Assembly: GCA_958295465.1 (NCBI GenBank) | Contig: OY282353.1 | Span: forward strand, 1,612,001-1,676,000 | Direction of reading: 5' to 3' | Source of the DNA: an uncultured Gammaproteobacteria bacterium | Lineage (GTDB): Bacteria > Pseudomonadota > Gammaproteobacteria > HK1 | DNA length: 64,000 bases | In this document: positions 36,573-59,473 of the stretch, piece after piece | How positions within the stretch are numbered: the first letter of the stretch is position 1 | Layout of the letters: each line of letters begins with the position of its first letter | Position numbers and translations under genes: made by a program | Notes under the pieces: generated by a model | Databases searched by the model: none | Seen by the model: only the letters and a program-made list of their open reading frames with translations | What the model was told of the DNA's origin: nothing

Positions 36573-37352
36573 TCAGGTACGCCCCTTCGCATCGCAATCC
36601 AGGGCGGCTCCGGCGAGACCGAGCAGCACCACGTGATCGAGCCCGTGCCGGACGATCTCGAAGGCGCCGCAGGCTTCCAGCTCCGCCGTCGAAGGCAACG
36701 CCATCTCGAACGGGAACAGGCGGGGGGCGCGAAGCAGCGCGGACGGCGGTCGGAGCTCGCCTCCCCCGGCCGAGAGCATGGCCTTCAGGACCCAGACGGT
36801 GATCGGCCCGTCGCCCGCGGCGCGCTTCGCGGCACCGCGATAGAGTCCCTTCTTGCCGGTCTCCAGCAACACGCCCCAGTCGATGAACGCCCGCAGGACG
36901 CGGCGCGCGGCGCGGGCGACGGTCTCGCGTTCGCCCAGGCGTTCTCGGAGCCGGCGCTGTATCTGGGCCGCCGCGGCCGTTCCCTGCAAGCGCAGCAGCC
37001 GCCCGGTCGCGTCGGCGACCGTGCCGAAGAAGGGATAGGCCGCCATGCACATGCACCAGTGCACCAGCATCCGGCCGTCCGCGTCCGTCTGCCGGAGAAG
37101 GTCGAGTCCTTCGTTGCGGAGCGTCCAAAGCTCTTCCGGAGTCGTGACCCAGACCCTGGTCAGGATCGCGACGGCCTTGTCCCGATTCCCGCTCACCCGG
37201 TCGCCGCCGAGCGAGAAGCGCTCTCTCAACCGTTCACGCAGAGCCGTGACGATCTCGTCCTCCGAGCTCCCGGCGAGGACGGCGTTGGCCGTGTATTCCA
37301 GCCAGTCGAGCCGGATACGCTGGCTGAACCCGATCCCTTCCTCGCGTTTCAC
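36573..37352 (-). CDS. brxA: BrxA-like BREX protein
   Basis: The 259-residue, mostly helical protein is encoded last in the BREX operon; its GTG overlaps the pglZ stop (GTGA). It begins VKREEGIGFSQRIRLDWLEY and has two wHTH-like helical parts (PEELWTLRNEGLDLL, RAARRVLRAFIDWGVLLET). Type 3 BREX operons end pglZ-brxA, and BrxA is a small DNA-binding wHTH protein of similar size. The identity is taken mainly from position and helical pattern. Confidence 0.6.
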   Translation of the reverse strand: MKREEGIGFSQRIRLDWLEYTANAVLAGSSEDEIVTALRERLRERFSLGGDRVSGNRDKAVAILTRVWVTTPEELWTLRNEGLDLLRQTDADGRMLVHWCMCMAAYPFFGTVADATGRLLRLQGTAAAAQIQRRLRERLGERETVARAARRVLRAFIDWGVLLETGKKGLYRGAAKRAAGDGPITVWVLKAMLSAGGGELRPPSALLRAPRLFPFEMALPSTAELEACGAFEIVRHGLDHVVLLGLAGAALDCDAKGRT

Positions 37353-39400
37353 GCCGCCGCCCGCCCGATTTCCACCATCGGCACGACGACCTCTTCGAGC
37401 GAGACGCCGCCGTGGCCGACGATGCGTTCGCCTTCGCGAACGAAGGCCGTCCGGCCCGGAGCGAGCAGCGCCAGACAGTCTTCGGGAAGCCCCGGACCCG
37501 GCCATTCGACCGCGTCCGGGAACCGCTCCTTCACGCGGGACCGCAGTGCGGCATCGGGATAGATGCGCGCGCGCTCTCCCCGCACGTCGGCGATCGCGCC
37601 TTCGGCGGGCCGGCCGCAGCCTTCCGCCTCGACGTTGCCGTGGTCCGAAGTCAGGAAGACGGCGAAGCCGTCGTCCAGCAACGCATCCAGCAGCCCGGCC
37701 ATGAACCCTTCCTCGGCCCATTGCCGAACCTGGTTGTGCATCCCCGCCGTGCCGAGGGTCATGCCGTGCATGATCTTGTCGACCTTGTCGACGACGAGGC
37801 CGAGCGCGCGGATCTTCGGTCGCGAAAGAAGCTCCCGGATGCCGTCGGGGGAGCCGTCGCCCAACCCCCTGGCGTAGCCCGCTTCCCGCACGGTCAGGCC
37901 CCGGTCGGCCCAGAAGCGGGTCCACAGCGAGGCTTCCCGGTCGGTCGTCAGGAGGCTCGACGGAAAATAGAACGGCGGCTTGCCGGCGAAGATCGCCTGC
38001 CGGGACACGGACGTGATGGTCGGCACCCAGGCGAACGCGGCGCCTTCGCGAAATCGGAGCTCCGGCCGCTGTATCGCCAGCACGTCCCGGAGCACCAGCC
38101 ACTGGTCGAGGGCGAGTCCGTCCACGACGAGGAGCGCGACCTTGCACCGGGGGTCGTCCGCGAGCCGCCGGGCGAGGAAACGCGGCAGGTGGTGCACCAT
38201 CACCGGCGGGGCCGGCGGCTGGTTGTGGAGCCCCGCGTAACGGCGCTCGACCCAGGCGAGGAAGGCCCGGTCCACGTCCGCGCGGAGTCCGGTGATCGAC
38301 GAGCCCGTATCCGCTCGCGTTGCGCGGAGTCCGGCGAGCAGCGAGCCCGTATCCGCCCGCGCCGCGGCGGCGGTTTCCGACAGGAGAACGCCGAGCTCGG
38401 CCCAGCGGAAGGCGAACGCCGTCCAGTCCCGGTGATTCGCATCCGCGCCGGGGATCGTCGCGCCGACGGTCTCTGCGAGGCGACGGAGGCGGCGCCTCCG
38501 GTCCGCCTCGGGGTCGATACGGATTCCGACCGCCGCCCATGCTTCGCGAAGGGCGGTGCCGGACTCGTGGCCCACGGGGCGCAGCATCCCTTCGACGAAC
38601 AGGTTGTCGATATAGACCCGGACGTCGTCATGGTCGAAAGGCAGGTCCACGGGTCCGCCGATGGCGAGGCCGGGCGTCCCTTCCGCATCTTGCGGCCCGC
38701 CGTTCCCGGCGTTGCCCGCCAGACGGTCGAGAAACAGGGGCCAGCGCTCCTGAAGAAAGGCGAAGAAGGCATCCCGATCCGGAAGGATGGCCTCCAGCGA
38801 CCAGGCAGTGAAGGCGCCGCCTTGCCGGAGCAGATGAGCCACCCGCTCGTCCAGGAGGCGCGGCAGCCGCTGCCCCCGGTAGTGCCTCCGCAACAGGAGG
38901 CGCAGCAGGTCGGAGGGGCGCCTGACGAGCTCGGGCGCGAAGTCGAAGACGTGCCGAAGCACGAAGTCCCTGGTCGCATCCTCCCCGAGCCTGCCCGGTC
39001 GGTGACGTTCCTGCGCCCGGTAGAGCGCGTCGAGGTCGCTACGGTCGAGCGACGCGACGACCGGGTAGCTGAAAGCGGGAAACAGATCGTCCAAGCCGAA
39101 GAAAAGCCGCCGACCGGCTTGCAGCAGATCGTAGGGAAGCGCCGCCGGATCGCGTGTCTCGGTCCGCACGACGAGTTCGAGGCCGGCGCCCTCGCCCCGG
39201 TCCCAACGAGACCGGAACCTCGATTCGTAGTCGAAGCGGAACGCGACGGGATCATCGAAGGTAACGACCTCGAAGCCCCGCTCGCGGATGGCTTCGAGGA
39301 GGGCGGCTTCGAGCAGCAGGCCATCGGAGTCGACCGCCAAGGTCAAGCGCGCGACCCCCGGCGTGAGCGCCTTCAGGATACGGTCGCGCCAGTCAGGCAC
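37349..39400 (-). CDS. pglZ: BREX PglZ, alkaline phosphatase-superfamily protein (full copy)
   Basis: The 683-residue protein begins with GTG (PDWRDRILKALTPG). The N-terminal half is BREX-specific; the C-terminal phosphatase-like domain has ALLVVDGLALDQWLV (metal Asp) and VFLTSDHGNVEAEG (metal Asp/His). PglZ is required in all BREX types. A 14-residue tandem duplication (RADTGSLLAGLRAT, RADTGSSITGLRAD) lies near residue ~365. It is separated from the intact pglX by 10 kb of duplicated and foreign DNA but keeps the strand and order of the operon. Confidence 0.88.
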   Translation of the reverse strand: MPDWRDRILKALTPGVARLTLAVDSDGLLLEAALLEAIRERGFEVVTFDDPVAFRFDYESRFRSRWDRGEGAGLELVVRTETRDPAALPYDLLQAGRRLFFGLDDLFPAFSYPVVASLDRSDLDALYRAQERHRPGRLGEDATRDFVLRHVFDFAPELVRRPSDLLRLLLRRHYRGQRLPRLLDERVAHLLRQGGAFTAWSLEAILPDRDAFFAFLQERWPLFLDRLAGNAGNGGPQDAEGTPGLAIGGPVDLPFDHDDVRVYIDNLFVEGMLRPVGHESGTALREAWAAVGIRIDPEADRRRRLRRLAETVGATIPGADANHRDWTAFAFRWAELGVLLSETAAAARADTGSLLAGLRATRADTGSSITGLRADVDRAFLAWVERRYAGLHNQPPAPPVMVHHLPRFLARRLADDPRCKVALLVVDGLALDQWLVLRDVLAIQRPELRFREGAAFAWVPTITSVSRQAIFAGKPPFYFPSSLLTTDREASLWTRFWADRGLTVREAGYARGLGDGSPDGIRELLSRPKIRALGLVVDKVDKIMHGMTLGTAGMHNQVRQWAEEGFMAGLLDALLDDGFAVFLTSDHGNVEAEGCGRPAEGAIADVRGERARIYPDAALRSRVKERFPDAVEWPGPGLPEDCLALLAPGRTAFVREGERIVGHGGVSLEEVVVPMVEIGRAAA

Positions 39401-39418
39401 GGGACGGCCCCTTGGCCG

Positions 39419-39589: not shown

Positions 39590-39592
39590 GGG

Positions 39593-40187: not shown

Positions 40188-40216
40188 GGTTCGTCTCCTT
40201 GCTTCTCAACAGTGAG

Positions 40217-40575: not shown

Positions 40576-40648
40576 GGTGACGTGGCTCGACCGGGGAGAC
40601 GTGGCGCGTACGGCATTGCCGGTGCCGGATGTACGGGCGGGAGTCATG

Positions 40649-41298: not shown

Positions 41299-41394
41299 GC
41301 CATCATGATAGCGAATCAGCCGGCATGACGGCATACGCACTTGAAGATCGCCCGATTCATTCCCCGGCGCGGCCCGACCCGAGGCGCAGCCGTG

Positions 41395-41470
41395 GGTCGG
41401 CGCCGCAGGGCTTGAAGTCAATCTTCTCGAAGGCGGCGAAGCGATCCGATTCCAGTCTCGTGCTCGTCAT
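41395..41470 (-). repeat. Displaced copy of the ATPase gene start
   Basis: The reading TSTRLESDRFAAFEKIDFKP follows directly from the pglX copy stop and is a diverged duplicate of the ATPase N-terminus (TITRLKLERFTAFEALDIKP). After ~25 codons it ends. It is the other flank of the vapBC cassette. Confidence 0.8.
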
Positions 41471-42983
41471 GTAGCCGCTCCCGTGCGGGTCAGCGCCTGG
41501 TCGTACCAGAGCAGGAGCTTCTGGTCCTCCTGGAGGACGGCCTCCGGGATCTTCTCCGCGGCCGAGACGATCGTGGCGTAGTCCTGGTCCTGGTATGCCT
41601 TGAAGAAACCGGCCCGCATCGCTTCGAGGCGGAAGAGCTTGAGCTTCCTCTGCGGAGACCGGCGGTACTCCTCGAACTCGCGCAGCAGGATGCGGGCGCG
41701 GCGCATCTCCACGTCGGCCGCCTTGTTGGGGTCGGGCACGTACCAGCGCCCCTTCGCCTTGTCGCGCAGGGCCGGATGGTCCTTGGGCAGCTTCCGCAGC
41801 TCCTTGAAGTTGGTGGAGAGGTAGCCGTGGATCTGGCTCGGGACCTCGCCGGCGCCGTCGTAGTACAGGAAGTTCTGCTCCAGCATCTCGGACAGCTCGG
41901 GCAGCTTCTCGTGCTTCCGCCAGCCCGCGATCTCGCGGAGGAACTGCGGGTGGACCTCCTGGAAGCTCTGCGGCCTCCGGCTCAAGTGCCGCTTGAGCCA
42001 CTGGATGGCGGAGACTTCGTCGACGACGAAGATCTCGATCTGCGCCACGTCCTCGACCGCCGCGCGCTTCCCGTCGTATTCGGCGACCTGATCGGGGAGG
42101 AACACCATGCCGTCGCGCTCGGGGAAGCGTTGGGCGAGGCCGGACAGGAACTCGCCGATCGACAGCGGGACCGCGACGTTGCGCAGCACGTGGAAGGCGA
42201 CCATGCGATCGAAGAGCAGATGCGGCTGCCGTTCGTTGACGACCTCGACGCGGCCGCCCTTGCGCACGAACACCGGAAGCTGGCCGAGATGGGTGCGGAC
42301 GAAATCCCAGGCGCCTTCCTCGGTGCCCTTCTCGAGGGCGAAGCGTTCCTCCAGCCCGTCGTTCGGCTTGTAGGCGGAGATCACGAGGTCCTGCTTGACC
42401 GCGGTACTGGTGACCTGCCGGTAGGAGCCCTGCTGCTTGTCCATCGTGCGCACGTCGGCGACGACGAAGCCGGCCGCGAGGAGGGCTTCCTGGATCGCGG
42501 TCCAGACCGCGTTCCGGGAGTTGTGGAAGACGACCGTGATCCAGCGCCCCGGCTTGAGCACCCGCCGGTATTCCTCGAAGCAGCGCTGCATCAGCCGCTG
42601 GTACTCGGGCAGCCCCTTCCCCTTGAAGCGATCGACGATAGCCTCGGGCGCGGGGTTGGTCAGCACCCGGTGCCAGGACTCGACCAGGAAGTTGAGATCG
42701 GCGTAGTAGATGTTCTCGCCGAACGGCGGGTCGGTGAAGACGTAGTCGATCGAATCGTCGGGGATCCCGAGCGATGCGGTCGTGCTCGCGGTCGCGATGC
42801 AGGAGGACGTTCGTCGGGCACCTGCTCTATCGAACGCCTTGACCAGCCGGGACAATTTGTTTCCAAGATTGTATCGGGGAGAGACTTCGGAGATCTGCGA
42901 TGCGACATAGTAGACGCCGGTAAGATGCTGATTGATTTGAGAATAGTGTGTCGGCACGTATCGGGCGAGAATCGACATGCCCC
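41467..42983 (-). pseudogene. 3' half of a second pglX
   Basis: About 505 codons nearly identical to the last half of the intact pglX at 49.6-52.7 kb, including TDPPFGENIYYADLNFLVES. Similarity ends abruptly at 42983, so the SAM-binding motif I half is missing. It lacks the 84-bp internal duplication found in the intact gene. An internal ATG (MSILARYVPTH) could allow translation, but such a product could not bind SAM normally. Confidence 0.9.
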
Positions 42984-43300
42984 CATGAACACGATGCCGG
43001 GGAGCAGCGCGGCCGGGTGGCTGGCGTTCCGGTGCATGACGGCGCGGGTCCTCGGGGTCGCCAATACGATCACGCTCCGGCTCGGGGCCAGGAAGTTCCG
43101 CCCACTCCCGAAGACGGCCGCGGAACCGCTACGATTCGGCGTCCGGACCCGGGCGATTGGAATACCGCGAAATCGATGCGTGAAGCCGTGTTTCGAGGCA
43201 TGGCGGGAATTTCCGGTTCGGAGCCGGGCGCGAGTTGACGCGCTTGCGCCGCGCTCTCGACAATGGCGATTGTACCGCCGATCAGCAGGATGCCATTCCC
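42984..43300. other. Duplication breakpoint region, no gene recognised
   Basis: Unique sequence between the pglX breakpoint and the DUF938 gene. No reading frame resembles a family. The DUF938 start could be extended to TTG 43235 but conserved sequence begins at 43301. Confidence 0.4.
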
Positions 43301-43897: not shown

Positions 43898-44451
43898 CTG
43901 CGGGCAGGCGTTCCCATCGACTTCGGCAGAGCTGGAACCGGGCGATATCTACAGATTTAGTGCGCCGTGCCAAGGCGCCATTCCTCAGCGGGTGCGAATC
44001 CCGCCCGGCAACTGTCGCTCCAGCCGGTAGCAGTCGGAGCGGTTGATGAAGGTAACGACATGGACTGAAGCACTCCGATGAGACGGGTCGCGACAGGCGA
44101 CTCAGCGACCATGCGGGCCGCAACGCGAGTGAACGCCGAGCAGGCCTCGAAACTTATGATGCGGAAGCCGACCCGCCTGAATCTCGGGGAAGGCTGGCAT
44201 CGGTCGGGAAGCGAGCGACGGACGCACCGGCCGGTTCCGCCGGGGTAGTGGCGGCGGCACGTATGGAGGAGGGGGATGGACGCAACACGGGAAGCCCCGG
44301 CGGTGGCATGGCACGTGCCAACCGGCGGCCTGCGAGGGACAGGCCGGGCCGTTCGGGGTGGCGGAGAGGCCCGTAGTACCGTGGAAACTGGGTAATGCCG
44401 GCTGAGGGAAGGGGCCTTGGTTCGAGAGGAGCGCAAGAAGGAGGAAGGGAG

Positions 44452-45792
44452 ATGGGGACTGGCAAGAGCCTAACAGCCCCGGAACGAGTTCGGAGACTCC
44501 GGGCGGCGCTACATGCGAAAGCGAAGGAAGCTGCGGGCTATCGGTTCTATACGCTGAGCGACAAGGTGTGGCGCGACGATGTGTTGTTGGTCGCCTGGGG
44601 TGAGGTCCGTCGTAATGGCGGAGCGCCCGGGGTGGATGGCGAGACGGTGGCGGACATCGAGGCGCGAGGCGTGGAGCGGTGGCTTGGGGGACTGGCGCGG
44701 GAGTTGAAGGAAGGGACCTACCGGCCCAAGGCGGTTCGGCGGGTGTGGATTGCGAAGAAACAACGCGGGAAGTATCGGGCACTGGGCATTCCCTGCCTAC
44801 GGGACCGGGTGGCGCAGACGGCGGCGTTGCTGGTGTTGTCGCCGATAGTCGAAGCGGACTTGGCCCCGGAGCAATACGCCTATCGGCCAGGGAGAAGCGC
44901 ACACGATGCGGTCAATCAGGCGCATCGGCTGGTCAATACGGGCCACTGCGAGGGAGTGGACGCGGATTTGTCGGACTACTTCGGCCAGATACCGCACGCC
45001 GAACTGCTCCACTGCGTCGCCCGTCGGGTCAGTGACGGGCGGATGTTGGGCTGGGTGAAGGCGTGGTTGGAGATGGCGGTCGAGGAAGACGACGGGCGAG
45101 GCGGCACCCGCCGCACGAACCGGGCGCGTCGGGAGAGGAAGGGGACCCCGCAAGGGGCGCCGATTTCTCCGCTGCTGAGCAACCTGTACATGCGTCGCTT
45201 CGTATTGGGCTGGAAGGTGTTGGGGCATGCCCAACGGTTCAAGGCGGACATCGTCAACTACGCCGATGACATCGTCATCCTTGGCAAGGAGTCGGCGGCG
45301 GCGATGCGAGAAGCGGTCGAGGACATGCTGAAGCGTCTGAAACTGCCGCTCAACGCCGAGAAGACCCGATGCGTGCGTGTTCCGGAGGAATCGTTCGACT
45401 TCCTTGGCTACCGGGTGGGACGCAACTATCGCCGGGATACGGGCCGGGCCTACATCGGCACGCGCCCCACACAGGCGAGCGTGCAGAGCATCTGCCGCAG
45501 GGTAAGCGAGCTGACGGCGCGACGATATGGGCGGCTGGACCCGGAAGTGGTGGTGGGGCGGCTGAACCGGCTCATGACCGGATGGGCGAACTACTTCCAC
45601 CTGGGACAAGTGAGCCCGGCTTACGCCGCGATTGACCGGCACGCGACCCGGCGGCTGCGCCGGTGGCTTTGTCGCAAGCACAAGGTTCGAGCCGGGGGAT
45701 ATGTGCGTTTCCCGGACCGGCGCCTATGGGAAGACCTGGGGCTGACTCGCCTTGCACCGCGAACGACGAGCTTTCCGTGGGCGAAGGCATGA
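44452..45792 (+). CDS. ltrA: Group II intron reverse transcriptase/maturase
   Basis: The 446-residue protein has reverse transcriptase blocks: RNGGAPGVDGETV (RT-0/1), KQRGKYRALGIPCLRDRVAQ, AYRPGRSAHDAV, GTPQGAPISPLLSNLYM (RT-4) and the catalytic YADD at 270-273. A maturase domain X with LMTGWANYFHLG follows. No C-terminal HNH endonuclease domain is visible. It should splice its intron and prime mobility from replication forks or nicks. The start at 44452 has AGGAAGGG upstream. Confidence 0.93.
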   Translation: MGTGKSLTAPERVRRLRAALHAKAKEAAGYRFYTLSDKVWRDDVLLVAWGEVRRNGGAPGVDGETVADIEARGVERWLGGLARELKEGTYRPKAVRRVWIAKKQRGKYRALGIPCLRDRVAQTAALLVLSPIVEADLAPEQYAYRPGRSAHDAVNQAHRLVNTGHCEGVDADLSDYFGQIPHAELLHCVARRVSDGRMLGWVKAWLEMAVEEDDGRGGTRRTNRARRERKGTPQGAPISPLLSNLYMRRFVLGWKVLGHAQRFKADIVNYADDIVILGKESAAAMREAVEDMLKRLKLPLNAEKTRCVRVPEESFDFLGYRVGRNYRRDTGRAYIGTRPTQASVQSICRRVSELTARRYGRLDPEVVVGRLNRLMTGWANYFHLGQVSPAYAAIDRHATRRLRRWLCRKHKVRAGGYVRFPDRRLWEDLGLTRLAPRTTSFPWAKA

Positions 45793-45802
45793 TCTCGTCC
45801 GA

Positions 45803-45835
45803 GAGCCGGATGCGGGAGACCCGCACGTCCGGTTC
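45803..45835 (+). ncRNA. Group II intron domain V
   Basis: GAGCCGGATGCGGG...CCCGCACGTCCGGTTC folds into the conserved 33-nt hairpin: an 8-bp lower stem with the AGC catalytic triad, a CG two-base bulge, and an upper stem closed by a GAGA-type loop. It contributes the catalytic metal site of the ribozyme. Confidence 0.9.
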
Positions 45836-45957
45836 GATGAGCGGGGGTGTGGAAACGCGGCTATGGCACAGACTGAGGCACCGGCACAAGGCGAAAGCAG
45901 CCGGCAAACAGCGACTCTCCATGCCTACGGCAAGGCGCGCCACTCCCCGACTCTACC

Positions 45958-47124
45958 ATCCATGCCGGGGATCGTCGCGCCGACGGTCTCCGCGAGGCGG
46001 CGGAGGCGGCGCCGCCGGTCCGCCTCGGGATCGATGCGGATTCCGACCGCCGCCCATTCACCGCGAAGCACGTGGCCGGACTCGTGGGAAACGGGGCGCA
46101 GCATCCCTTCGACGAACAGGTTGTCGATGTAGACGCGGACGTCCTCATGGTCAAAGGGCAGGTCTGCGGGTCCGCCGATGGCGAAGCCGGGCGTCCCTTC
46201 CCCCTCTTGCCGGTCGCCGTCCCCGGCGTTGCATGACGTCGTGCGGCTTGTCTGCGCGGGACGACGAGCTTCTGCGCCCTGCCGGTCGCCGCCCCCGACG
46301 TTGCCCGCCAGATGGTCGAGATCTTGCGGGCCGCCGCTCCCGGCGTTGCCCGCCAAGCGGCGAAGATCTTTCGGGCCGCCGCCCCCGGCGTTGTCCGTCA
46401 GGCGGCCGAGATCTTGCGGCCCACCGTTCCCGGCGTTGCCCGCCAGGCGGTCGAGAAACAGGGGCCAGCGCTCCTGAAGAAAGGCGAAGAAGGCATCCCG
46501 ATCCGGAAAGATGGCCTCCAGCGGCCAGGCAGCGAAGGCGCCGCCTTGCCGTAGCAACTGCACCAGCCGATCGTCCAGGAGGCGCGGCAGCCGCTGCCCT
46601 CGGTAGTGCCTCCGCAACAGGAGGCGCAGCAGGTCGGATGGGCGCCGGACGAGCTCGGGCGCGAAGTCGAAGACGTGCCGAAGCACGAAGTCCCTGGTCG
46701 CGTCCTCGCCGAGCCGGTCCGGCCGGTGGCGTTCCTGCGCTCGGTGGAGCGCGTCGAGGTCGCTACGGTCGAGCGACGCGACGACCGGGTAGCTGAAAGC
46801 GGGAAACAGGTCGTCCAAGCCGAAGGAAAGCCGCCGACCGGCCTGCACCAGATCGTAGGGAAGCGCCGCCGGATCGCGGCTTCCGGTACGCACGACGAGT
46901 TCGAGGCCGGCGCCCTCGCTCCGATCCCAGCGAGACCGGAACCTCAATTCGTAGTCGAGGCGGAATGCAACGTGATCCTCGAAGGTGACGATCTCGAAAC
47001 CTCTCCCGCGGACAGCTTCGAGGAGGGCGGCTTCAAGCAGCAGGCCATCGGGATCGGCCACCAGGGTCAGGCGCGCAACCCCCGGCGTGAGTTCCGTCAG
47101 GATACGGTCGCGCCAGTCAGGCAC
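45958..47124 (-). pseudogene. 5' half of a second pglZ, with amplified internal repeat
   Basis: From GTG 47124 (PDWRDRILTELTPG) about 390 codons match the first half of the full PglZ; similarity stops at ~45958. The phosphatase domain is gone. Where the full copy has one LAGNAGNGGPQDA, this copy has at least three 15-residue units (LAGNAGNGGPQDLGR, LTDNAGGGGPKDLRR, LAGNAGSGGPQDLDH) and further decayed ones. It is more diverged from its twin than the pglX/vapBC copies are from theirs. Confidence 0.88.
46210..46460. repeat. 45-bp tandem repeats in pglZ copy 2
   Basis: Units such as GTTGCCCGCCAGATGGTCGA...CCCGGC recur every 45 bp three or four times, with degenerate copies to the left. The full pglZ at 38.7 kb has a single unit. 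Confidence 0.85.
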
Positions 47125-47141
47125 TGGACAGGCCCGCGGTG

Positions 47142-47645
47142 CTACGGGATGCGCGACAACGGGAAGCGAGGCTGGTGTCGGTTCCACGTGTCGATGTTGA
47201 ACACCATGCAGCCCGTGACGATCCGCCGCTTCCATTCTCCGGACGGCGGTCCCTTCAGCGGGAGCCCGCGCCTCAGATCGTCCGTTCGTGCGAAAAGCTC
47301 AGCTTCGGTCAGCTTGTCCAAGGCGATGATGACCCAGTAGTAGATCGGTTTATCGACGCGCTCGGATGCCCACTGATAAAGGAAGGTATCGCGGTATTTG
47401 TATTTCAGATTTTCATCCAGCTTTCCAGATCGAAATTTCTGGATGAATTTACTACTTCTCTCTGCCGCGGCATTCGGATGATCCGGATCCTTGATTTCGA
47501 TGAACGATATGCGAGCGGCCTCCTCGACGATGAAATCCACTGCTTTCATACAAGGCAGACTATGAGATTTCGGATCGTCGAACTTTCTGGCCTTCGCACT
47601 CCGGGGAAAAGTAATTTGGAGATTGCCTTCGCGCAGCGTGGTCAT
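47142..47645 (-). CDS. Candidate PD-(D/E)XK-like protein paired with AAA ATPase
   Basis: The 167-residue protein starts 3 bp after the ATPase stop. AVDFIVEEAARISFIEIKDP holds Asp37 and Glu50-Ile-Lys52, spaced as in D-x(n)-E-x-K nuclease sites; the strand context (SFIEIK) supports it. Further conserved-looking aromatics are in DTFLYQWASERVDKPIYYWVIIALD. No named family was recognised. ATPase plus nuclease-like pairs are a common defence layout; a nuclease role is inference. Present only in the right-hand copy of the duplicated BREX segment. Confidence 0.6.
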   Translation of the reverse strand: MTTLREGNLQITFPRSAKARKFDDPKSHSLPCMKAVDFIVEEAARISFIEIKDPDHPNAAAERSSKFIQKFRSGKLDENLKYKYRDTFLYQWASERVDKPIYYWVIIALDKLTEAELFARTDDLRRGLPLKGPPSGEWKRRIVTGCMVFNIDTWNRHQPRFPLSRIP

Positions 47646-47648
47646 TGT

Positions 47649-48659
47649 TTACTTGCCCCCCAGACTGCGTTCGACCTCGCGGTCGTACAGGTTGGTGAAC
47701 GCTTCGGCGATGGTGTTGGGATGGATGTCGAGATAGGCGCGGGCCGTTTGGCAGGCGATCTCGCCGCCCTCACGATAGAGGGAATAAAAAACGAGCTTGT
47801 CCTCTTGCTTCCTTTGTAGATCCAGTTCCTTGAGAACAGCGTAGTCATGGGTGGCAAGGAATATCTGGACTCCCTTACGCTGCAATTCGAGAAGAATTTT
47901 GACCACCGCCCCGAACAGCTTGGGATTGAGATTGGTTTCCGGTTCGTCCCAGAAAAGCACCGACCCTTCGAGCAGCGTTCCGTTCTGGATCAACAGCCAT
48001 AGCAACCCCAGCTTGCGCATCCCCTCGGCGAGTAACGAGAATTCCAGGTTTCCTTGTCTGCTGCGAAGAAAAAACTCTTCGTTCTTCGCATGGACTCTTC
48101 CGTCGATCGCCTTCTGTAGAATAGTGAGCAAGCGTTTGCGTTCGCCAGGCGCAGGGCCGCGCAAGGCAGGCCGATAGGCGCGGTCGAGAATGTCCGCGTA
48201 CACCTCCTCGAAATGGATCTCCCGTTGCGCATAGAGAGAACGGAATCCCGGAGCATTCGCGAGCATTTCCTTCACCGGGACGTAGACGCCTTCGATGGGC
48301 TCGGTTCTCCAACGCCGTGCGCCACGGACAATGGCCGAATCCGCCGCGATGGTGTGATTCGAGAAGAAAGCCCGAAGCAGTCGATCTCCGCGCCGAATAC
48401 GAACGGCGCAACGCGAGCTTTCACCGCGCCGTTTGACGAGCCGCCCGATGGCGCCCCCGGACGGCATGAAGACGCGGACGATCTTTTCGGCGAATCCGAT
48501 GTCCGTCTTGCTGACGTCGCAGGCGGCATAGGCGACCTTCATGAGATGGGTCTTCCCGGTCCCGTTGGCGCCGACAAGGACGTTGATGCCGGGCGAGGGC
48601 TTGATGTCCAGTGCCTCGAAGGCGGTGAACCGTTCCAGCTTCAGTCTCGTGATCGTCAT
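47649..48659 (-). CDS. AAA family ATPase in BREX locus (full copy)
   Basis: The 336-residue SMC/OLD-like ATPase has Walker A GANGTGKTHLMK (~32-43), Walker B in SVLFWDEPETNLNPKL and switch HDYAVLKELD in FLATHDYAVLKEL. It has no fused nuclease; the downstream 167-residue protein is the likely partner. The C-terminus (DLYDREVERSLGGK type) is basic. It sits in the BREX operon between vapBC and the second pglZ copy. Only its first ~80 codons exist in the left duplicate. Confidence 0.85.
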   Translation of the reverse strand: MTITRLKLERFTAFEALDIKPSPGINVLVGANGTGKTHLMKVAYAACDVSKTDIGFAEKIVRVFMPSGGAIGRLVKRRGESSRCAVRIRRGDRLLRAFFSNHTIAADSAIVRGARRWRTEPIEGVYVPVKEMLANAPGFRSLYAQREIHFEEVYADILDRAYRPALRGPAPGERKRLLTILQKAIDGRVHAKNEEFFLRSRQGNLEFSLLAEGMRKLGLLWLLIQNGTLLEGSVLFWDEPETNLNPKLFGAVVKILLELQRKGVQIFLATHDYAVLKELDLQRKQEDKLVFYSLYREGGEIACQTARAYLDIHPNTIAEAFTNLYDREVERSLGGK

Positions 48660-48745
48660 GTAGTCGCTCCCGTGCGGGTCAGTGCCTGGTCCTACCAGAG
48701 CAGGAGCTTCTGGTCCTCCTGGTGGACAGCCTCCGGGATTCCTTC
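48660..48745 (-). repeat. Displaced copy of the pglX 3' end (right copy)
   Basis: CTCCCGTGCGGGTCAGTGCC and the following bases repeat the last codons of pglX (49637-49720) just upstream of the full ATPase, as at 40490 in the left copy. Confidence 0.85.
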
Positions 48746-48818
48746 GGCGACGTGGCTCGACCGGGGAGACGTGGCGCGTACGGCATTGCCGGTGCCGGAT
48801 GTACGGGCGGGAGTCATG

Positions 48819-49223
48819 TCATGGGGCCGGCAGCAGCCGGAACCCCTGGCGGGCGAAATCGTCATCCAGCGCGAGCGCGTCCGTCAGTCCGCGGCGGCGC
48901 ATGAGCTCGAAGCTCGTGCAATCGACCAGCGACAGCTTCCTGCGCCCGGCGGCGAACAGCGAGGCGACCGCCGCCGCGTGCAGCTCCTCGTCGATCCAGA
49001 GCGGTCGGAGCATCGGCACGAGAACATTGGCCAGGGCACGTAGTGCTTCCAGCCCCAAGCGGCGCTGAACGAGCGCGAAGGATTCCACCAGAACGTAGTT
49101 CGAGGTGAACAGGGCTTTCTCATCGGCGACCGCTCGATCCCAGGTGTCGATCACCTCGGCGTGCCGGGGCTGATCCGCATCGAGGAACGCAACGAGGGCG
49201 GAGGTGTCGACGAAGATGCTCAC
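48819..49223 (-). CDS. vapC: VapC PIN-domain toxin (copy 2)
   Basis: The 134-residue product is nearly identical to copy 1; visible differences are conservative (for example ALANVLVPML for ALADVLVPML and GLTDALALDDDF for GLTEALALDDDF). All PIN acidic residues are kept. It overlaps vapB copy 2 by ATGA. Since either VapB should neutralise either VapC, the modules are presumably cross-immune. Confidence 0.9.
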   Translation of the reverse strand: MSIFVDTSALVAFLDADQPRHAEVIDTWDRAVADEKALFTSNYVLVESFALVQRRLGLEALRALANVLVPMLRPLWIDEELHAAAVASLFAAGRRKLSLVDCTSFELMRRRGLTDALALDDDFARQGFRLLPAP

Positions 49224-49468
49224 GAGTCGAACGCGTCGTCGAGGTAACGATCATGCGCCTCGGCGAGATCGGCGGCCCCCGAGCGAAAACGTCCCTTGAG
49301 ACCGCGTGCGCGACGAGCGAGCTCCTGCACGTCCGGAGTGCACCGCCGCGCCAGGTACTCGGCGACGCACTCGCGCACCAGCTCGGCGATCGAGCGTTCC
49401 TCCCTCCGCGCCTGGGCCTTGAGCGCCCGCGCCTGCTCCTCGGTCAACTGAATCTGGGTTCGTATCAT
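49220..49468 (-). CDS. vapB: VapB-type ribbon-helix-helix antitoxin (copy 2)
   Basis: The 82-residue antitoxin differs from copy 1 by few residues (YLARRCTPD versus YLARRRTPD). It has the same start context and the same upstream palindrome near 49470-49490. It is translated with vapC copy 2. Confidence 0.88.
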   Translation of the reverse strand: MIRTQIQLTEEQARALKAQARREERSIAELVRECVAEYLARRCTPDVQELARRARGLKGRFRSGAADLAEAHDRYLDDAFDS

Positions 49469-49561
49469 GCCATCATGATAGCGAATCAGCCGGCATGACG
49501 GCATACGCACTTGAAGATCGCCCGATTCATTCCCCGGCGCGGCCCGACCCGAGGCGCAGCC

Positions 49562-49640
49562 GTGGGTCGGCGCCGCAGGGCTTGAAGTCAATCTTCTCGA
49601 AGGCGGTGAACCGATCCGATTCCAGTCTCGTGATCGTCAT
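49562..49640 (-). repeat. Displaced copy of the ATPase gene start (right copy)
   Basis: Immediately after the pglX stop the sequence encodes TITRLESDRFTAFEKIDFKP, a diverged duplicate of the ATPase N-terminus, then ends. With the 48660 fragment it brackets vapBC copy 2. Confidence 0.8.
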
Positions 49641-52600
49641 GTAACCGCTCCCGTGCGGGTCAGCGCCTGGTCGTACCAGAGCAGGAGCTTCTGGTCCTCC
49701 TGGAGGACGGCCTCCGGGATCTTCTCCGCGACCGTGATGATCGTGGCGTAGTCCTGGTCCTGGTATGCCTTGAAGAAACCGGCCCGCATCGCTTCGAGGC
49801 GGAAGAGCTTGAGCTTCCTCTGCGGAGATCGGCGGTACTCCTCGAACTCGCGCAGCAGGATGCGGGCGCGGCGCATCTCCACGTCGGCCGCCTTGTTGGG
49901 GTCGGGCACGTACCAGCGCCCCTTCGCCTTGTCGCGCAGGGCCGGATGGTCCTTGGGCAGCTTCCGCAGCTCCTTGAAGTTGGTGGAGAGGTAGCCGTGG
50001 ATCTGGCTCGGAACCTCGCCGGCGCCGTCGTGGTACAGGAAGTTCTGCTCCAGCTCCTTGAAGTTGGCGGAGAGGTAGCCGTGGATCTGGCTCGGAACCT
50101 CGCCAGCGCCGTCGTAGTACAGGAAGTTCTGCTCCAGCATCTCCGACAGCTCGGGCAGCTTCTCGTGTTTCCGCCAGCCCGCGATCTCGCGGATGAACTG
50201 CGGGTGGACGTCCTGGAAGCTCTGCGGCTTCCGGCTCAAGTGCCGCTTGAGCCACTGGATGGCGGAGACTTCGTCGACGACGAAGATCTCGAGCTGCGCC
50301 ACGTCCTCGACGGCCGCCCGTTTCCCGTCGTATTCGGCGACCTGATCGGGGAGGAACACCATGCCGTCGCGTTCGGGGAAGCGCTGGGCGAGGCCGGAGA
50401 GGAATTCGCCGACCGACAGGGGAACCGTCACGTTGCGCAGCACGTGGAAGGCGACCATGCGATCGAAGAGCAGATGCGGCTGTCGTTCGTTGACGACCTC
50501 GACGCGGCCGCCCTTGCGCACGAACACCGGAAGCTGGCCGAGATGGGTGCGGACGAAATCCCAGGCGCCTTCCTCGGTGCCCTTCCCGAGGGCGAAGCGT
50601 TCCTCCAGCCCGTCGTTCGGCTTGTAGGCGGAAATCACGAGGTCCTGCTTGACCGCGGTGCTGGTGACCTGCCGGTAGGAGCCCTGCTGCTTGTCCATCG
50701 TGCGCACGTCGGCGACGACGAACCCGGCCGCGAGCAGGGCTTCCTGGATCGCGGTCCAGACCGCGTTCCGGGAGTTGTGGAAGACGACCGTGATCCAGCG
50801 CCCCGGCTTGAGCACCCGCCGGTACTCCTCGAAGCAGCGCTGCATCAGCCGCTGGTATTCGGGCAGCCCCTTCCCCTTGAAGCGATCGACGATGGCTTCG
50901 GGCGCGGGGTTGGTCAGCACCCGGTGCCAGGACTCGACCAGGAAGTTGAGATCGGCGTAGTAGATGTTCTCGCCGAACGGCGGGTCGGTGAAGACGTAGT
51001 CGATCGAATCGTCGGGGATCCCGAGCGATGCGGTCGTGCTCGCGGTCGCGATGCAGGAGGACGTTCGTCGGGCACCTGCTCTATCGAACGCCTTGACCAG
51101 CCGGGACAATTTGTTTCCAAGATTGTATCGGGGAGAGACTTCGGAGATCTGCGATGCGACATAGTAGACGCCGGTAAGATGCTGATTGACTTGAGAATAG
51201 TGTGTCGGCACGTATCGGGCGAGAATCGACATGCCCCAGATGGCTTGCTCGACGAAGTAGAGGAGCATGTGGCGAACGCGGGAATCGGAGTGAGCGTTGG
51301 CCTTGCGCCACATCGCCGCCAGGGCGTGCGCGGCGCGGGGAAGAAAGAAATGATGGGCGTGTGTGACCCCCTTCGGCGCCAGACGCGAACCGTGATACAT
51401 GCTTTCGATCGGGATCCGTATCGTCGGAACCTCCATTGAAAGGGGCGTTTCCTCGATACGCCGCAGGACGTCCCGATCGCCGGCATCCGGTGTTTTCGTG
51501 AACCTTCGGCCGTCCACCTTGTACCGGATCAGCGCCGGTCTGAAGGTCACGTGTTTCCATAACTGCCCGGTATCCGCGTCCATATCGGATTGAAACACCC
51601 GCTCCAGATTGTTCTTGTTCAGCAAAGAATCGCAGTCGGGACACGCAAAGACATCGCTGACCCTGCCGGTTGCCCGATCCAGTGCTTCTTCCAGGAACAC
51701 GATCTCGCTGGTGCATTCGGGGCAGGAAAACACCTCGCTCCAGACGGTGTAGTCGATCCGTCCCTTGGTCTTCCCGTCCGAGTGCAGGGTCTCGTACATC
51801 CAGCCGAGCTCTTCCTCCACCTCGTCGAGCAACGCGCGGCCGGCGTCGGCGAACTCGGCGACGTCGAAGGGAAGGGTGTAGTTGGCGGCGATGAAGCCCG
51901 CGGCCGGCGACAGATCGTTCAGGATCGCATGGCGGGCGCCCCAGCGCGGCTTCCCGAACCCTTCCCCGGACCACAACGCTTCAAGGGACTTCCGCCAGCT
52001 CTCCGGCGCGGTCCCGCACCATTGCGCGGCGACGCCGGTCATGCCGGAGCCGGCGAATCCGTCCAGCACCAGATCGCCGGGCTCCGTGTAGTGGAGGATC
52101 GAGGGCACGATCGCCAAATGCGGCACCTTGGTGTGATAGCCGTGCGCCCGGTAGACGGGGTGGGTCTTGCCCTCGCTGACATCGACCGCGAAGGGCTTGC
52201 GGCGATAGGGCTCGGCGGGGTCGCAAGGCCGGCCGTGCGCCTCCACGAACGCGCCCAGGAACGGGTTCGGACAGGCGGTGTGCCAGGGCGGGTCCGACAG
52301 GCTCAGGAGGTCGTCGATCTCACCGTGGGGAAACCCGGTCTCGTCCTTCCAGCGTTGCAGCAGGTCTTTCGACGAATCGGCTCGCGCCATGCGCTCGGCG
52401 AGACTGCGAAGCCGGCCTTCGTCCCCCATCGGCCAGTGCGCGACGGCCGCCAAGCGGGCGATCGTGTCGTCGATGCCGGAGAAGGGCACGCCGGCGAGCG
52501 TGGCGTGCAGCTCCTCCAGACCCTTCTTCAGCTCGCCGAGAAAATGGGCGCGCCGCGCCGCCTCGTTCTCGAACGTCAGGCCCAGGCATTCGACCGGCCG

Positions 52601-52711
52601 GTCGCGCGCGGCTTCCGCGGCCTCCTCCCGGGCCTTCTCGAACAACCCGTCCTGCCCCGAAGGGTTTCGCAACGACCGGCCGGCCTCGCGGTTCGTCTTG
52701 CCGCGCGCCAT
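49637..52711 (-). CDS. pglX: BREX PglX-like DNA methyltransferase (full copy)
   Basis: The 1024-residue methylase has SDPPWHTACPNPF near 139-151, the SAM site LVLDGFAGSGMTGVAAQ at ~214-230, a CPEC...CPDC metal-binding pair at ~330-360 and the catalytic TDPPFGENIYYADLNFL near 570. It resembles type 3 BREX methylases, which mark host DNA at N6-adenine. An 84-bp in-frame duplication (LEQNFLYYDGAGEVPSQIHG twice) lies near 50035-50120 and is absent from the partial copy. Gaps to its operon neighbours are 3-5 bp. Confidence 0.9.
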   Translation of the reverse strand: MARGKTNREAGRSLRNPSGQDGLFEKAREEAAEAARDRPVECLGLTFENEAARRAHFLGELKKGLEELHATLAGVPFSGIDDTIARLAAVAHWPMGDEGRLRSLAERMARADSSKDLLQRWKDETGFPHGEIDDLLSLSDPPWHTACPNPFLGAFVEAHGRPCDPAEPYRRKPFAVDVSEGKTHPVYRAHGYHTKVPHLAIVPSILHYTEPGDLVLDGFAGSGMTGVAAQWCGTAPESWRKSLEALWSGEGFGKPRWGARHAILNDLSPAAGFIAANYTLPFDVAEFADAGRALLDEVEEELGWMYETLHSDGKTKGRIDYTVWSEVFSCPECTSEIVFLEEALDRATGRVSDVFACPDCDSLLNKNNLERVFQSDMDADTGQLWKHVTFRPALIRYKVDGRRFTKTPDAGDRDVLRRIEETPLSMEVPTIRIPIESMYHGSRLAPKGVTHAHHFFLPRAAHALAAMWRKANAHSDSRVRHMLLYFVEQAIWGMSILARYVPTHYSQVNQHLTGVYYVASQISEVSPRYNLGNKLSRLVKAFDRAGARRTSSCIATASTTASLGIPDDSIDYVFTDPPFGENIYYADLNFLVESWHRVLTNPAPEAIVDRFKGKGLPEYQRLMQRCFEEYRRVLKPGRWITVVFHNSRNAVWTAIQEALLAAGFVVADVRTMDKQQGSYRQVTSTAVKQDLVISAYKPNDGLEERFALGKGTEEGAWDFVRTHLGQLPVFVRKGGRVEVVNERQPHLLFDRMVAFHVLRNVTVPLSVGEFLSGLAQRFPERDGMVFLPDQVAEYDGKRAAVEDVAQLEIFVVDEVSAIQWLKRHLSRKPQSFQDVHPQFIREIAGWRKHEKLPELSEMLEQNFLYYDGAGEVPSQIHGYLSANFKELEQNFLYHDGAGEVPSQIHGYLSTNFKELRKLPKDHPALRDKAKGRWYVPDPNKAADVEMRRARILLREFEEYRRSPQRKLKLFRLEAMRAGFFKAYQDQDYATIITVAEKIPEAVLQEDQKLLLWYDQALTRTGAVT
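50035..50120. repeat. 84-bp in-frame tandem duplication in pglX
   Basis: Adjacent 28-codon units encode EQNFLYYDGAGEVPSQIHGY and EQNFLYHDGAGEVPSQIHGY followed by LS(A/T)NFKEL. The partial pglX at 41.5 kb has one unit, so the second arose after the segmental duplication or was lost there. Confidence 0.9.
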
Positions 52712-52714
52712 TGC

Positions 52715-55069
52715 TCAGCCCCCGCCTGCGTGGCGGGCCTTGAGCGCGGCCCCGGCCTCGGTCAGCACGTAGGCCTGATGCGGGTGGTTGGGCCGGTCCG
52801 GGTGGGTCATGCGGAGCACGCCGCCCCACAACAGTGGGTCCAGATGGGCGCGGCGGAAAAAGGCCCGGTGGCTCAACCCCAGTTCGCCCATTACTTCCGC
52901 CATGGTACGGGGGATGTCGCAGAGCGCCACGATCTTCCACTGGATCGGCGATAGCTCGGTCAGAGGCGCAGCTTGGGCACTGGACAAGTCGGGTGCGTCC
53001 GACCCAACTTGGTCGGTGACCAACCTCTCCGCGGGCACATCAGCTTGGTCAGTGACCAACCTCTCCGCGGGCGCATCGACTTGGTCAGTGACCAACCTCG
53101 CCCCAGGCACATCAGCTTGGTCAGTGACCAACCTCGCCCCAGGCACATCAGCTTGGTCAGTGACCAACCTCGCCCCAGGCACATCAGCTTGGTCAGTGAC
53201 CAACCTCGCCCCAGGCACATCAGCTTGGTCAGTGACCAACTTCGCCCCAGGCGCATCAGCTTGGTCAGTGACCAACTTCGCCGCAGGCGCATCAGCTTGG
53301 TCAGTGACCAACCTCTCCGCAGGCACATCAGCTTGGTCAGTGACCAACCTCGCCGCAGGCACATCAGCTTGGTCAGTGACCAACCTCGCCGCAGGCGCAT
53401 CAGCTTGGTCAGTGACCAACCTCTCCGCAGGCACATCAGCTTGGTCAGTGACCAACCTCTCCGCAGGCACATCAGCTTGGTCAGTGACCAACCTCGCCCC
53501 AGGCACATCAGCTTGGTCAGTGACCAACCTCTCCGCAGGCGCATCAGCTTGGTCAGTGACCATGTCCGGTTGTCCGGCGCTGCTCCGGCCAATTCGGCCG
53601 AGTCGTCCCGCGAGATGCCCGGCGACGGCGAACACCGGCGCTCCGGTTCCTTCCAGTGGCGATATGAGCGCCTGGACGACCAGACGCTCCAGGACCGCCT
53701 GTACGTCGGCGCCGGAAAGACCCGTGACGGCACGCACGTCGCGCGGGCGTAACCTGCCCTCACGGCAGGCGAAGGCGAAAGACCTGGCCTCGGCCTCGTC
53801 GAGGCGAACGCCGAGGCTGGCCTGAAACAGAAGCTGCTCTTCGGACAGGAGCTCCTCCTTGAGGAGGGTCAATTGGAATGCCTTCCGAGCCTTGTCGTTG
53901 TCGACGATCGGCGGAACGCGCCCGAGCCTCCGCCAGCGGTCGAAGATGGCGCGGATGCCGGTCCCGGCCTGTTCGCTCAAGCCTATGCGGCGGAAAGCGG
54001 CGACGATCCTGGGGTTGCGGACCTCCTTCTCGCCGGGATCCAGGAGTTCCTCGGCCGATGCGAAAGTGTCACCCGGATTCCACAACAGCGTACGGTCGTC
54101 GAAGAACCGGATCGACGGCTTGCGGGTATGGTCGGCGTAATCCTGATGGATCAGCAGATTGATCGCAGCCTCCCGGAAAGCGACGTAATCCGGCGGCCGG
54201 TCGGCCCGCCGCAGTGTTTCGGGATCGACGGAAAAAGGCTTCTCGGCGCGCTGTTGATAGCGATCCACGAGCGCCCTCCAGGCCTTCACGAGATTGGCCT
54301 CGATCACCAGCCGATCGGCCCAGCGTTCCTCCGGCAAGTCCTCCGACCAGTCCCCGCGGTGCCACTGCCAGTCCACGACGGGGCGGGGCAGCACCTGGCG
54401 GAACGCGGGGTCCACGCCGAACAGGAGGACCGCCGCGCGCGTCGGCAGCAGCCGGCCGCCGGTTTCGACGATCAGACCCCAGTGGTGGAGGAACTCCAGG
54501 TGCGGCAGCGACTCGTCGCGGTCCGGGTTTCGGTCGTAAAAGCGTGTCCGATACCAGCGCACGGACTCGTCGTCGAAACAACGCCCGGGATCGAGATCGA
54601 CGGTCTCCGCATCGTAGCGCTCGTCCGCCGCGTCGCGGAGAAGCCGTTCGATCTCACCCTGGGTGCATTGTTCGTCGCCGGCACCGCGGCGGATGAACGA
54701 CTTTCGGATATCGCCGCCGAGATAGACCGGCTTGTCCTGCCTGCGCGCCTCGGGGATGTGGAAGACGAGAAGCGCCTTGCCGTCTTCTTCGATCAACTGC
54801 TCCTTCGCCGCGACGACGCGATTCAACTTCTGGCCGGCACGGAGGACGTTGAGGAAGTCGTTCTGGATCTGGTCCACTTTCGGAACGCCGACGATCTCGA
54901 AGCCGCCCCCGACTTCCCGGACGCCGAAGACCAGCCAGCCGCCCTTGGTATTCGCGAAGGCGGAAACCGTCTCATAGGCGGACTTGGGAACGCCCCCATG
55001 GGCCTCCTTGACCTCGACGTCGGTCCACTCGTACCCCTTGAGGCGTTCGATGATCTCCTCCCGTTCCAT
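52715..55069 (-). CDS. AlbA/Schlafen-type ATP-binding protein with 12-residue repeats, BREX-embedded
   Basis: The 784-residue protein has an AlbA_2 domain at ~1-150 (WTDVEVKEAHGGVPKSAYET, SAFANTKGGWLVFGV). A HATPase-like region lies at ~290-400 (REAAINLLIHQDYADHT, EQAGTGIRAIF), followed by wHTH segments. About 15.5 copies of a 12-residue unit (LVTDQADVPGAR) come at ~500-690, then a C-terminal wHTH. Such proteins often act as nucleic-acid-binding regulators. It is 6 bp from brxC and 3 bp from pglX. The repeats probably form a flexible acidic linker. Confidence 0.82.
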   Translation of the reverse strand: MEREEIIERLKGYEWTDVEVKEAHGGVPKSAYETVSAFANTKGGWLVFGVREVGGGFEIVGVPKVDQIQNDFLNVLRAGQKLNRVVAAKEQLIEEDGKALLVFHIPEARRQDKPVYLGGDIRKSFIRRGAGDEQCTQGEIERLLRDAADERYDAETVDLDPGRCFDDESVRWYRTRFYDRNPDRDESLPHLEFLHHWGLIVETGGRLLPTRAAVLLFGVDPAFRQVLPRPVVDWQWHRGDWSEDLPEERWADRLVIEANLVKAWRALVDRYQQRAEKPFSVDPETLRRADRPPDYVAFREAAINLLIHQDYADHTRKPSIRFFDDRTLLWNPGDTFASAEELLDPGEKEVRNPRIVAAFRRIGLSEQAGTGIRAIFDRWRRLGRVPPIVDNDKARKAFQLTLLKEELLSEEQLLFQASLGVRLDEAEARSFAFACREGRLRPRDVRAVTGLSGADVQAVLERLVVQALISPLEGTGAPVFAVAGHLAGRLGRIGRSSAGQPDMVTDQADAPAERLVTDQADVPGARLVTDQADVPAERLVTDQADVPAERLVTDQADAPAARLVTDQADVPAARLVTDQADVPAERLVTDQADAPAAKLVTDQADAPGAKLVTDQADVPGARLVTDQADVPGARLVTDQADVPGARLVTDQADVPGARLVTDQVDAPAERLVTDQADVPAERLVTDQVGSDAPDLSSAQAAPLTELSPIQWKIVALCDIPRTMAEVMGELGLSHRAFFRRAHLDPLLWGGVLRMTHPDRPNHPHQAYVLTEAGAALKARHAGGG
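53006..53565. repeat. 36-bp tandem repeat array, ~15.5 copies
   Basis: The unit ACCTCGCCCCAGGCACATCA plus GCTTGGTCAGTGACCA recurs with no spacers. Variation is limited to a few positions that give Val/Ala, Pro-Gly/Pro-Ala and Arg/Lys/Glu changes. Neighbouring copies 10-13 are identical, as expected from recent slippage or unequal exchange. It is inside the coding sequence and in frame. Confidence 0.95.
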
Positions 55070-55075
55070 CGGCGC

Positions 55076-58996: not shown

Positions 58997-59473
58997 TCAC
59001 GTCACCGCTCCGGCGCCCACGGCCAGAACGCCGTCCAATGGGTAGCTGCGGTATTCCGGATGGCCGGGTACGGCATAGCGGACATGGTTGCCTTCGACGA
59101 ACCCGTTCCAGGCCGCGGCCACGGTCCGGCGCCGCGAGAGGCCCTGGAGAAGGCGGAGCGGGTCCTGCCGTAGCGCGGTATCGAAGAGGAGCTCGAGGTT
59201 GTCCAGCAGGACGACGTCGCTTCCGGACCCGGCGGCGATCTCGTCGAGAAGGCGCCGCACCTGAAGCGGGCGCTGCCGCCCGGTCAGGTCGAGCAGACGG
59301 CGCGAGAGCTCCAGGTTGACGTTGACGAGCGGCGCGCCGAGGTGGGCGGCGGCCTCCCGCAAGGCGCCGGTCTTGCCCGCACCCGCCGCGCCGACGACGA
59401 GGGCCAGCCGGTAGTAGAGGGTCCCGGCCTCTCCGATCTTCTCGATCACCTCTTCGGACAAAGGCCGCGTCAC
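58997..59473 (-). CDS. brxF: BREX-3-type P-loop protein BrxF
   Basis: The 158-residue P-loop ATPase has Walker A GAAGAGKT at 28-35, then NVNLELSRRLLDL, the Walker B-like DVVLLDNLELLFD and RTVAAAWNG, a pattern specific to BrxF. Its GTG overlaps the stop of the HTH gene (GTGA). BrxF is the main marker that this is a type 3 locus. The C-terminus (PGHPEYRSYPLDGVL) is as expected. Confidence 0.85.
   Translation of the reverse strand: MTRPLSEEVIEKIGEAGTLYYRLALVVGAAGAGKTGALREAAAHLGAPLVNVNLELSRRLLDLTGRQRPLQVRRLLDEIAAGSGSDVVLLDNLELLFDTALRQDPLRLLQGLSRRRTVAAAWNGFVEGNHVRYAVPGHPEYRSYPLDGVLAVGAGAVT

Follow-up and report, generated by a model that had tools for sequence, protein, structure and literature searches.

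Proteins in which a Schlafen RNase is joined to a minimal histidine kinase and a wHTH have been described beside BREX genes in at least 1017 taxa, and they have been proposed to act as BREX auxiliaries or backup effectors that cleave tRNA in abortive infection (PMC12839542). This Schlafen-GHKL-wHTH family and its BREX link are already known, and the protein described here has the same domain order and the same BREX linkage. Linker repeats, a VTxQ motif, and nucleotide constraint are not mentioned in the main-text sections consulted from that study. The long, fast-changing array that we report is new relative to the known proteins of the family.

Linker repeats of another kind occur in EcoR124 HsdS, where in-frame TAEL repeats lie between nucleic acid-binding domains and a change in their number changes function (PMC3874165). 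The TAEL repeats are 12 bp long, helical, and present in two or three copies, whereas those described here are 36 bp long, predicted to be disordered, and present in 15–18 copies. With these data, a common and ignored linker of defence proteins becomes testable at two levels, tether length and synonymous positions. Two questions are raised: whether a Schlafen effector of BREX is tuned by quick, in-frame change of tether length, and for what reason the synonymous positions of the motif stay fixed across phyla.

The type 3 BREX locus

The window, that is, the whole stretch of 64,000 nucleotides that was analyzed, contains the following genes and elements.

36573..37355, minus strand, brxA, start approximate (PADLOC BrxA, 246 bits, residues 398–638 of ORF 36573–38540)
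37349..39400, minus strand, full-length pglZ (PADLOC PglZ, 934 bits)
41467..42978, minus strand, partial second pglX, C-terminal half, 503 aa
43986..45956, plus strand, group II intron with an RT/maturase ORF at 44395–45792 (Rfam RF02003 and RF00029; Pfam RVT_1 and GIIM)
45957..47235, minus strand, pglZ copy 1, 5′ part, cut by the group II intron; the 3′ end of the span is the intron border
47142..48659, minus strand, HEC-02A (47649–48659) and HEC-02B (47142–47645) (PADLOC)
49637..52711, minus strand, pglXI methyltransferase, full copy (PADLOC PglXI, 1329 bits)
52715..55069, minus strand, Schlafen (SLFN_AlbA_2)-HATPase_c_4-wHTH-array-Fic-like_C protein, ORF of 784 aa
55076..58816, minus strand, brxC, type 3 (PADLOC BrxC, 1905 bits)
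58997..59467, minus strand, brxF, start codon approximate (NCBIfam BREX_3_BrxF, 176 bits; PADLOC BrxF)

The presence of brxF, brxC, pglXI, pglZ, and brxA in one locus constitutes the type 3 BREX gene set. Copy 1 of pglZ is interrupted, since the 3′ end of the intron adjoins exactly its start at 45957, but the full-length copy is present downstream. The ORF, strand, and coordinates of the Schlafen gene are those given in a preliminary description of this DNA. The gaps, given there as 3–6 bp, are 6 bp to brxC (55070–55075) and 3 bp to pglX (52712–52714).

A scan of named genomes yielded 32 relatives of the Schlafen protein. In 21 of them the gene was located between brxC and pglX, and two more had another BREX gene in the locus. 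No BREX gene was found in the available DNA of the other nine, five of which were on contigs shorter than 10 kb; loci L164 and L165 were also outside BREX. The distances between Schlafen proteins were correlated with those between BrxC proteins (r = 0.76, 18 loci; P = 0.0005 by permutation, the lowest value possible), and the correlation was looser for PglX against BrxC (r = 0.49, 16 loci). The gene is an integral member of the operon, as had been proposed. Homologues of this subfamily were found mostly inside BREX loci, but more distant relatives lay outside, with BREX genes in none of the 12 loci inspected.

The BrxF cut-off was passed by seven of 398 genomes of the phylum, three of which (G000, the genome of the window; G046; and G062) had a close relative of the protein. 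In three other BrxF-positive genomes the slot between brxC and pglX held another AlbA_2-HATPase protein, an AAA_21 ATPase, and a DUF1828 protein, respectively; in the fourth, G179, the contig was too short for the slot to be read.

The operon is partly duplicated in tandem over 36573–51237: positions 48391–51237 are 97% like 40221–42983, and 45957–47135 are about 89%–91% like 38440–39410. In the stretches examined, the congener G002, which appears from a coordinate match to be record OY282378.1, has only one pglX-HEC-02-pglZ set.

The Schlafen gene and the helicase slot

The preliminary description placed the gene where a helicase gene is expected in type 3 loci and suggested testing whether homologues go with BREX loci lacking the helicase BrxHII. 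The position does not agree with this, as the BrxHII slot of type 3 loci is located between pglX and pglZ; in the window it is occupied by HEC-02. BrxHII was absent from the window and from the locus of G002, and no true member was found in the whole genome (best profile match, 350 bits, compared with 1453 for a real member), which is what a replacement of BrxHII by the Schlafen protein would predict. However, among the 17 related loci with a whole pglX-pglZ interval, 12 had BrxHII there together with the Schlafen gene, and the five without it were L042, L043, L044, L054, and L066. In addition, Pfam and PADLOC searches gave no match to a helicase core or SNF2 domain in the Schlafen protein. 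With separate slots and co-occurrence in 12 of the 17 loci, we rejected the replacement, which we consider extremely unlikely, and the Schlafen gene is now set apart from the helicase slot. BrxHII is not universal in type 3 systems in any case, since it was reported in 77% of type 3 taxa (PMC12839542).

The contents of the BrxHII slot varied among loci. A second AlbA_2-like protein was found there in a Thermoanaerobaculia BREX locus (L044:15121–16404), a PHP-ATPase (Ppl-like) in L043, and an AAA-type ATPase (HEC-01A-like) in L054; therefore, this slot hosts varied defence genes.

Domains of the Schlafen protein

Four domains or domain-like segments were recognized.

54665..55030, minus strand, SLFN_AlbA_2 domain, residues 14–135 (Pfam, E = 2.2e-14)
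53867..54121, minus strand, HATPase_c_4 (GHKL-type) domain, residues 317–401 (Pfam, E = 1.2e-12)
53600..53842, minus strand, first wHTH-like segment, residues 410–490 (AlphaFold2, confident)
52724..52957, minus strand, Fic-like_C winged helix, residues 705–782 (Pfam, E = 1.5e-11; the match itself covers residues 721–770)

The Pfam scores exceeded the curated cut-offs for AlbA_2 (54.4 bits, cut-off 25.3), HATPase_c_4 (48.1 bits, cut-off 26), and Fic-like_C (44.5 bits, cut-off 27), which assigns the protein to the Schlafen/AlbA_2 family and gives it a GHKL ATPase domain and a Fic-like_C winged helix. The first wHTH-like segment had a weak MarR_2 match, under the Pfam cut-off. The protein had previously been called an AlbA-type ATP-binding protein; the AlbA_2/Schlafen assignment holds for the N-terminus, but the ATP-binding domain is a separate one, at residues 317–401. 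In an AlphaFold2 model built with 26 sequences, residues 495–699 had pLDDT values below 50 (about 30 in the array) and were flanked by confident domains on either side. The array region is predicted to be disordered.

Fold comparison, whose list of matching families need not be exhaustive and in which the N-terminal and GHKL parts were thinly represented, related the N-terminal domain to 2kyy and to the rabbit SAMD9 tRNase domain (PDB 9o0d), with which it shares the AlbA_2 fold (Z 10.7 over 139 residues). Its sequence similarity to Schlafen 8 (PDB 5yd0) is weak. DIP2311 (PDB 3lmm) has the chain of AlbA_2, HATPase_c_4, and wHTH folds in common with our protein (Z 22.2 over 410 residues, rmsd 14.1 Å, 19% identity), the model being aligned over residues 3–490 only. 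The C-terminal winged helix is like that of the Fic protein 4rgl (Z 12.2, rmsd 1.3 Å) and also resembles MarR-type winged helices.

The residues of the SAMD9 tRNase have been described (PMC12331169), and the catalytic acids of the SAMD9 and Schlafen tRNase domains are matched only in part by the candidate nuclease. In an alignment of 26 relatives, E14, E19, K21, and D66 were invariant. For the three-carboxylate Schlafen site, E14 and E19 are candidates for two of the acids, and the third is uncertain. At the position that we take to correspond to Schlafen13 D248, the acid is not invariant among relatives; the invariant D66 may stand in as the third acid. The Schlafen/AlbA_2 domain is probably a tRNA- or RNA-cleaving nuclease, to which its fold and sequence provide a fit rather than proof.

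The 36-bp repeat array

The repeats occupy the linker between the two winged helices.

53021–53560, minus strand, 15 full 12-residue units VTDQ(A/V)D(A/V)P(A/G)(A/E)(R/K)L (array 53009..53560 with the terminal VTDQ)
53009–53020, minus strand, terminal VTDQ closing the array
53009..53563, no strand assigned, 16 copies of the 15-bp palindrome TTGGTCACTGACCAA, one every 36 bp

TRF reported a 36-bp unit in 15.4 copies with 95% matches (53008–53562). The preliminary description counted about 15 identical repeats. The number is correct, but the units are not identical: nine DNA unit types occur among the 15, and the consensus VTDQADVPGARL accounts for five. A run of four identical neighboring units, also described before, is present once. 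Fourteen of the 16 palindrome copies are exact, and the first and last each have one change. With up to two mismatches allowed, the palindrome pattern had 32 matches in the window, against 0.04 expected from shuffles. The array was found once in the 5.68-Mb genome.

Copy-number change had been predicted from the homogeneity of the units, and the number is indeed not fixed. The congener G002 has 18 units plus a terminal VTDQ, in an order different from that of the window. In codons 281–510 and 685–784, which flank the array, the two genes differ in four codons. Change in the array is therefore faster than the accumulation of point mutations: unit number (15 and 18) and order differ, with the flanks almost unchanged.

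The Schlafen domain (54665–55069) is the part of the protein most diverged between the congeners, with 22 amino acid changes in the first 120 codons; the remainder is nearly identical.

Motifs with a 12-residue period were also found in other lineages: two in L045, L046, L047, and L068, three in L162, and five in L163. It follows that the long arrays arose by expansion of a linker that is itself old.

Nucleotide constraint on the linker motif

The residues LVTDQ are encoded as TTGGTCACTGACCAA. Across 31 units of both arrays, none of the 15 positions of this sequence varied, compared with 9 of the 21 spacer positions (Fisher P = 0.005); this comparison leaves out the first unit of each array, which is preceded by ATG, and the terminal VTDQ, which has ACC. 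The codons GTC ACT GAC were common to the window and to L045, L046, L047, and L068, labeled in their records as Armatimonadetes, Eisenbacteria, Planctomycetota, and Acidobacteria, respectively (taxa of metagenome-assembled genomes are record labels as given). In the gene bodies, ACT accounts for at most one of the 16–21 Thr codons of L046, L047, and the window gene, and the same codon was used at 47% of the shared residues elsewhere. L045 and L068 carry less weight, since ACT is commoner in their gene bodies (5/18 and 4/21). The LVTDQ evidence amounts to four lineages and not six, since G000 and G002 are not independent and L046 and L047 are close relatives (63% same codons).

Members with LSTAQ have TTG or TTA followed by TCC ACT GCA CAA in most copies. 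In all LVTDQ lineages, at least one copy had seven of seven palindrome pairs. Among the LSTAQ genes, L043, L044, and L162 had six of the seven pairs in at least one copy, and L163 had five.

For a wider comparison, 103 genes were grouped into 68 clusters at 70% identity, 35 of them with VTxQ, and one motif was taken per cluster. At 70%, the clusters still fall short of full independence; lower thresholds of 45% and 35% placed nearly all genes in two groups and were uninformative. The Q codon of VTxQ was CAA in 30 of the 35 clusters, compared with 13.7 expected from the codon use of the genes themselves (P at the simulation limit, 5e-6). In the motif, T avoids ACA and ACG and V avoids GTG. CAA was not enriched at Q before V or A (51/136, 52.3 expected), in Q codons of the linker flanks (37/90, 36.0 expected), at QxY (27/58, 26.1 expected), or at HQD (4/25, 11.9 expected). 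Our results showed that the VTxQ linker motif is constrained at the nucleotide level. Searches of open-licence papers yielded no relevant work on such linkers and no prior description of synonymous constraint on this motif.

Codon context was discarded as the cause, as Q before V or A and Q before GNN showed no bias. Low GC content of the linker was also discarded: GC3 was 0.571 in the flanks, 0.618 in the body, and 0.479 in the motif, and the Q codons of the flanks were unbiased. In the LVTDQ group, recent transfer of the linker with the wHTH was rejected because the wHTH had no excess of codon identity (same-codon fraction 0.46, body 0.47). In the LSTAQ group the fractions were 0.52 and 0.45, driven by L043/L044 against L162; here codon identity could still come from recent transfer.

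Fic proteins with VTPQ or VTDQ linkers and a Fic-like_C wHTH have the same motif in the same place with the same CAA preference, but their repeats are mostly of 12 bp and not 36 bp. Judging from the Pfam family name, these proteins presumably carry a Fic domain instead of the Schlafen-GHKL part.

Viral carriage of the linker was rejected, as the double-motif pattern had no match in viral contigs. Four viral loci were matched by the Fic_C alignment and two by the SLFN alignment.

Proposed role of the protein and alternative explanations

We hold, with moderate confidence, that the protein is an accessory effector in the type 3 BREX operon, namely a gated RNase-type Schlafen whose tether to the last winged helix varies in length. 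The GHKL ATP-binding domain probably gates the N-terminal nuclease, and the second, Fic-like_C winged helix would be carried on the flexible tether that follows the first. ATP binding or contact with the BREX complex would hold the nuclease off. Once phage DNA or inhibition of BREX is sensed, the nuclease would be released to cleave RNA, either as a backup or in an abortive response. The array would represent in-frame expansion of an ancestral linker, which in relatives contains a pair of LVTDQ (or LSTAQ) motifs at a distance of 12 residues. The tether length can vary freely because each gain or loss of 36 bp corresponds to 12 residues and keeps the frame. That linker length tunes the distance between the ATPase and the wHTH, as suggested in the preliminary description, is plausible given the low pLDDT of residues 495–699 in the AlphaFold2 model. 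By analogy with the TAEL repeats of EcoR124 (PMC3874165), we infer that repeat number may affect function here.

A serious alternative, and one that we regard as quite possible, is that replication slippage in a repeat-prone genome produced the long array as a neutral side effect, any linker length being tolerated and copy number having no function. The expansion could be neutral because the host genome is repeat-rich: a 400-kb sample of G000 (L191–L210) contained 67 TRF arrays, 43 of them with a period divisible by three, and the density of 16.8 arrays per 100 kb was about three times that in BREX loci of other taxa (5.7). Slippage is also favored by the palindromic unit, which folds on itself. 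The linker of most relatives is only 50–90 residues long, and long arrays occur in only two members, which leaves a functional role of length conjectural. However, arrays of at least 10 copies numbered only 2 of the 67 sampled, independent lineages have kept both the motif and the 12-residue register, and the 15-mer is invariant across the 31 units in which the spacer varies.

In another set of readings, the nucleic acid itself is selected. The VTxQ linker before Fic-like_C winged helices might be a cis element within coding sequence, in Schlafen-GHKL and Fic proteins alike, that is selected at the DNA or RNA level, travels with the wHTH, and reaches 15–18 copies here; in the BREX Schlafen group the element would be the 15-bp palindrome. 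We judge this proposal, taken jointly with its palindrome part, to be doubtful. If true, linker DNA that a module carries with it would be a new way for shuffled defence modules to keep their regulation. A more specific version, in which the linker DNA would serve within the ORF as an operator or recruitment site for the adjacent winged helix, a portable self-operator that moves with the wHTH module, is improbable. The CAA enrichment with unenriched control Q codons, the avoidance of ACA, ACG, and GTG, the palindrome pairs kept in all LVTDQ lineages and, at six of seven, in three of the four LSTAQ genes, and the failure of whole-module recent transfer to explain the LVTDQ group all fit it. However, the VTGQ, VTEQ, and VTPQ groups retain the codons without a long palindrome, and the 36-bp spacing is not helically phased. 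The palindrome core GGTCACTGACCA was confined to the linker in five of the six genomes searched (which include the mutually non-independent G000 and G002) and had one extra copy, in an unrelated ORF, in G000; this near confinement therefore speaks against a dispersed operator. A promoter operator elsewhere was rejected because none of these six genomes had a promoter copy of the core.

At the RNA level, the repeats in the mRNA could be a substrate or decoy that limits the Schlafen RNase, like the tandem RNA antitoxins of type III toxin-antitoxin systems. The message of a putative RNase does carry 36-nt repeats, and the array RNA folds better than its shuffles (z = −9.1), but tandem palindromes fold well by construction, the repeats are translated, and in many relatives the repeats number only two or are 12 nt long. 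A search of 34000–62000 with the Rfam families of type III toxin-antitoxin RNAs, at gathering scores, gave no match. We consider a decoy very unlikely.

Repeats and divergence in pglX and pglZ

Coding repeats were also observed in other genes of the operon. In pglZ copy 1, a 45-bp coding repeat is present in 3.9 copies (46280–46456), and the full pglZ copy lacks it. The full pglX copy has an 84-bp in-frame tandem duplication of 28 residues (49967–50138), which is missing from the second partial copy and unaligned in G002. Between G000 and G002, codons 320–480, approximately, of pglX (49637–52711) have diverged strongly, with the remainder of the gene close; this region is likely a TRD insert, as if the specificity had been swapped or diversified between the two congeners.
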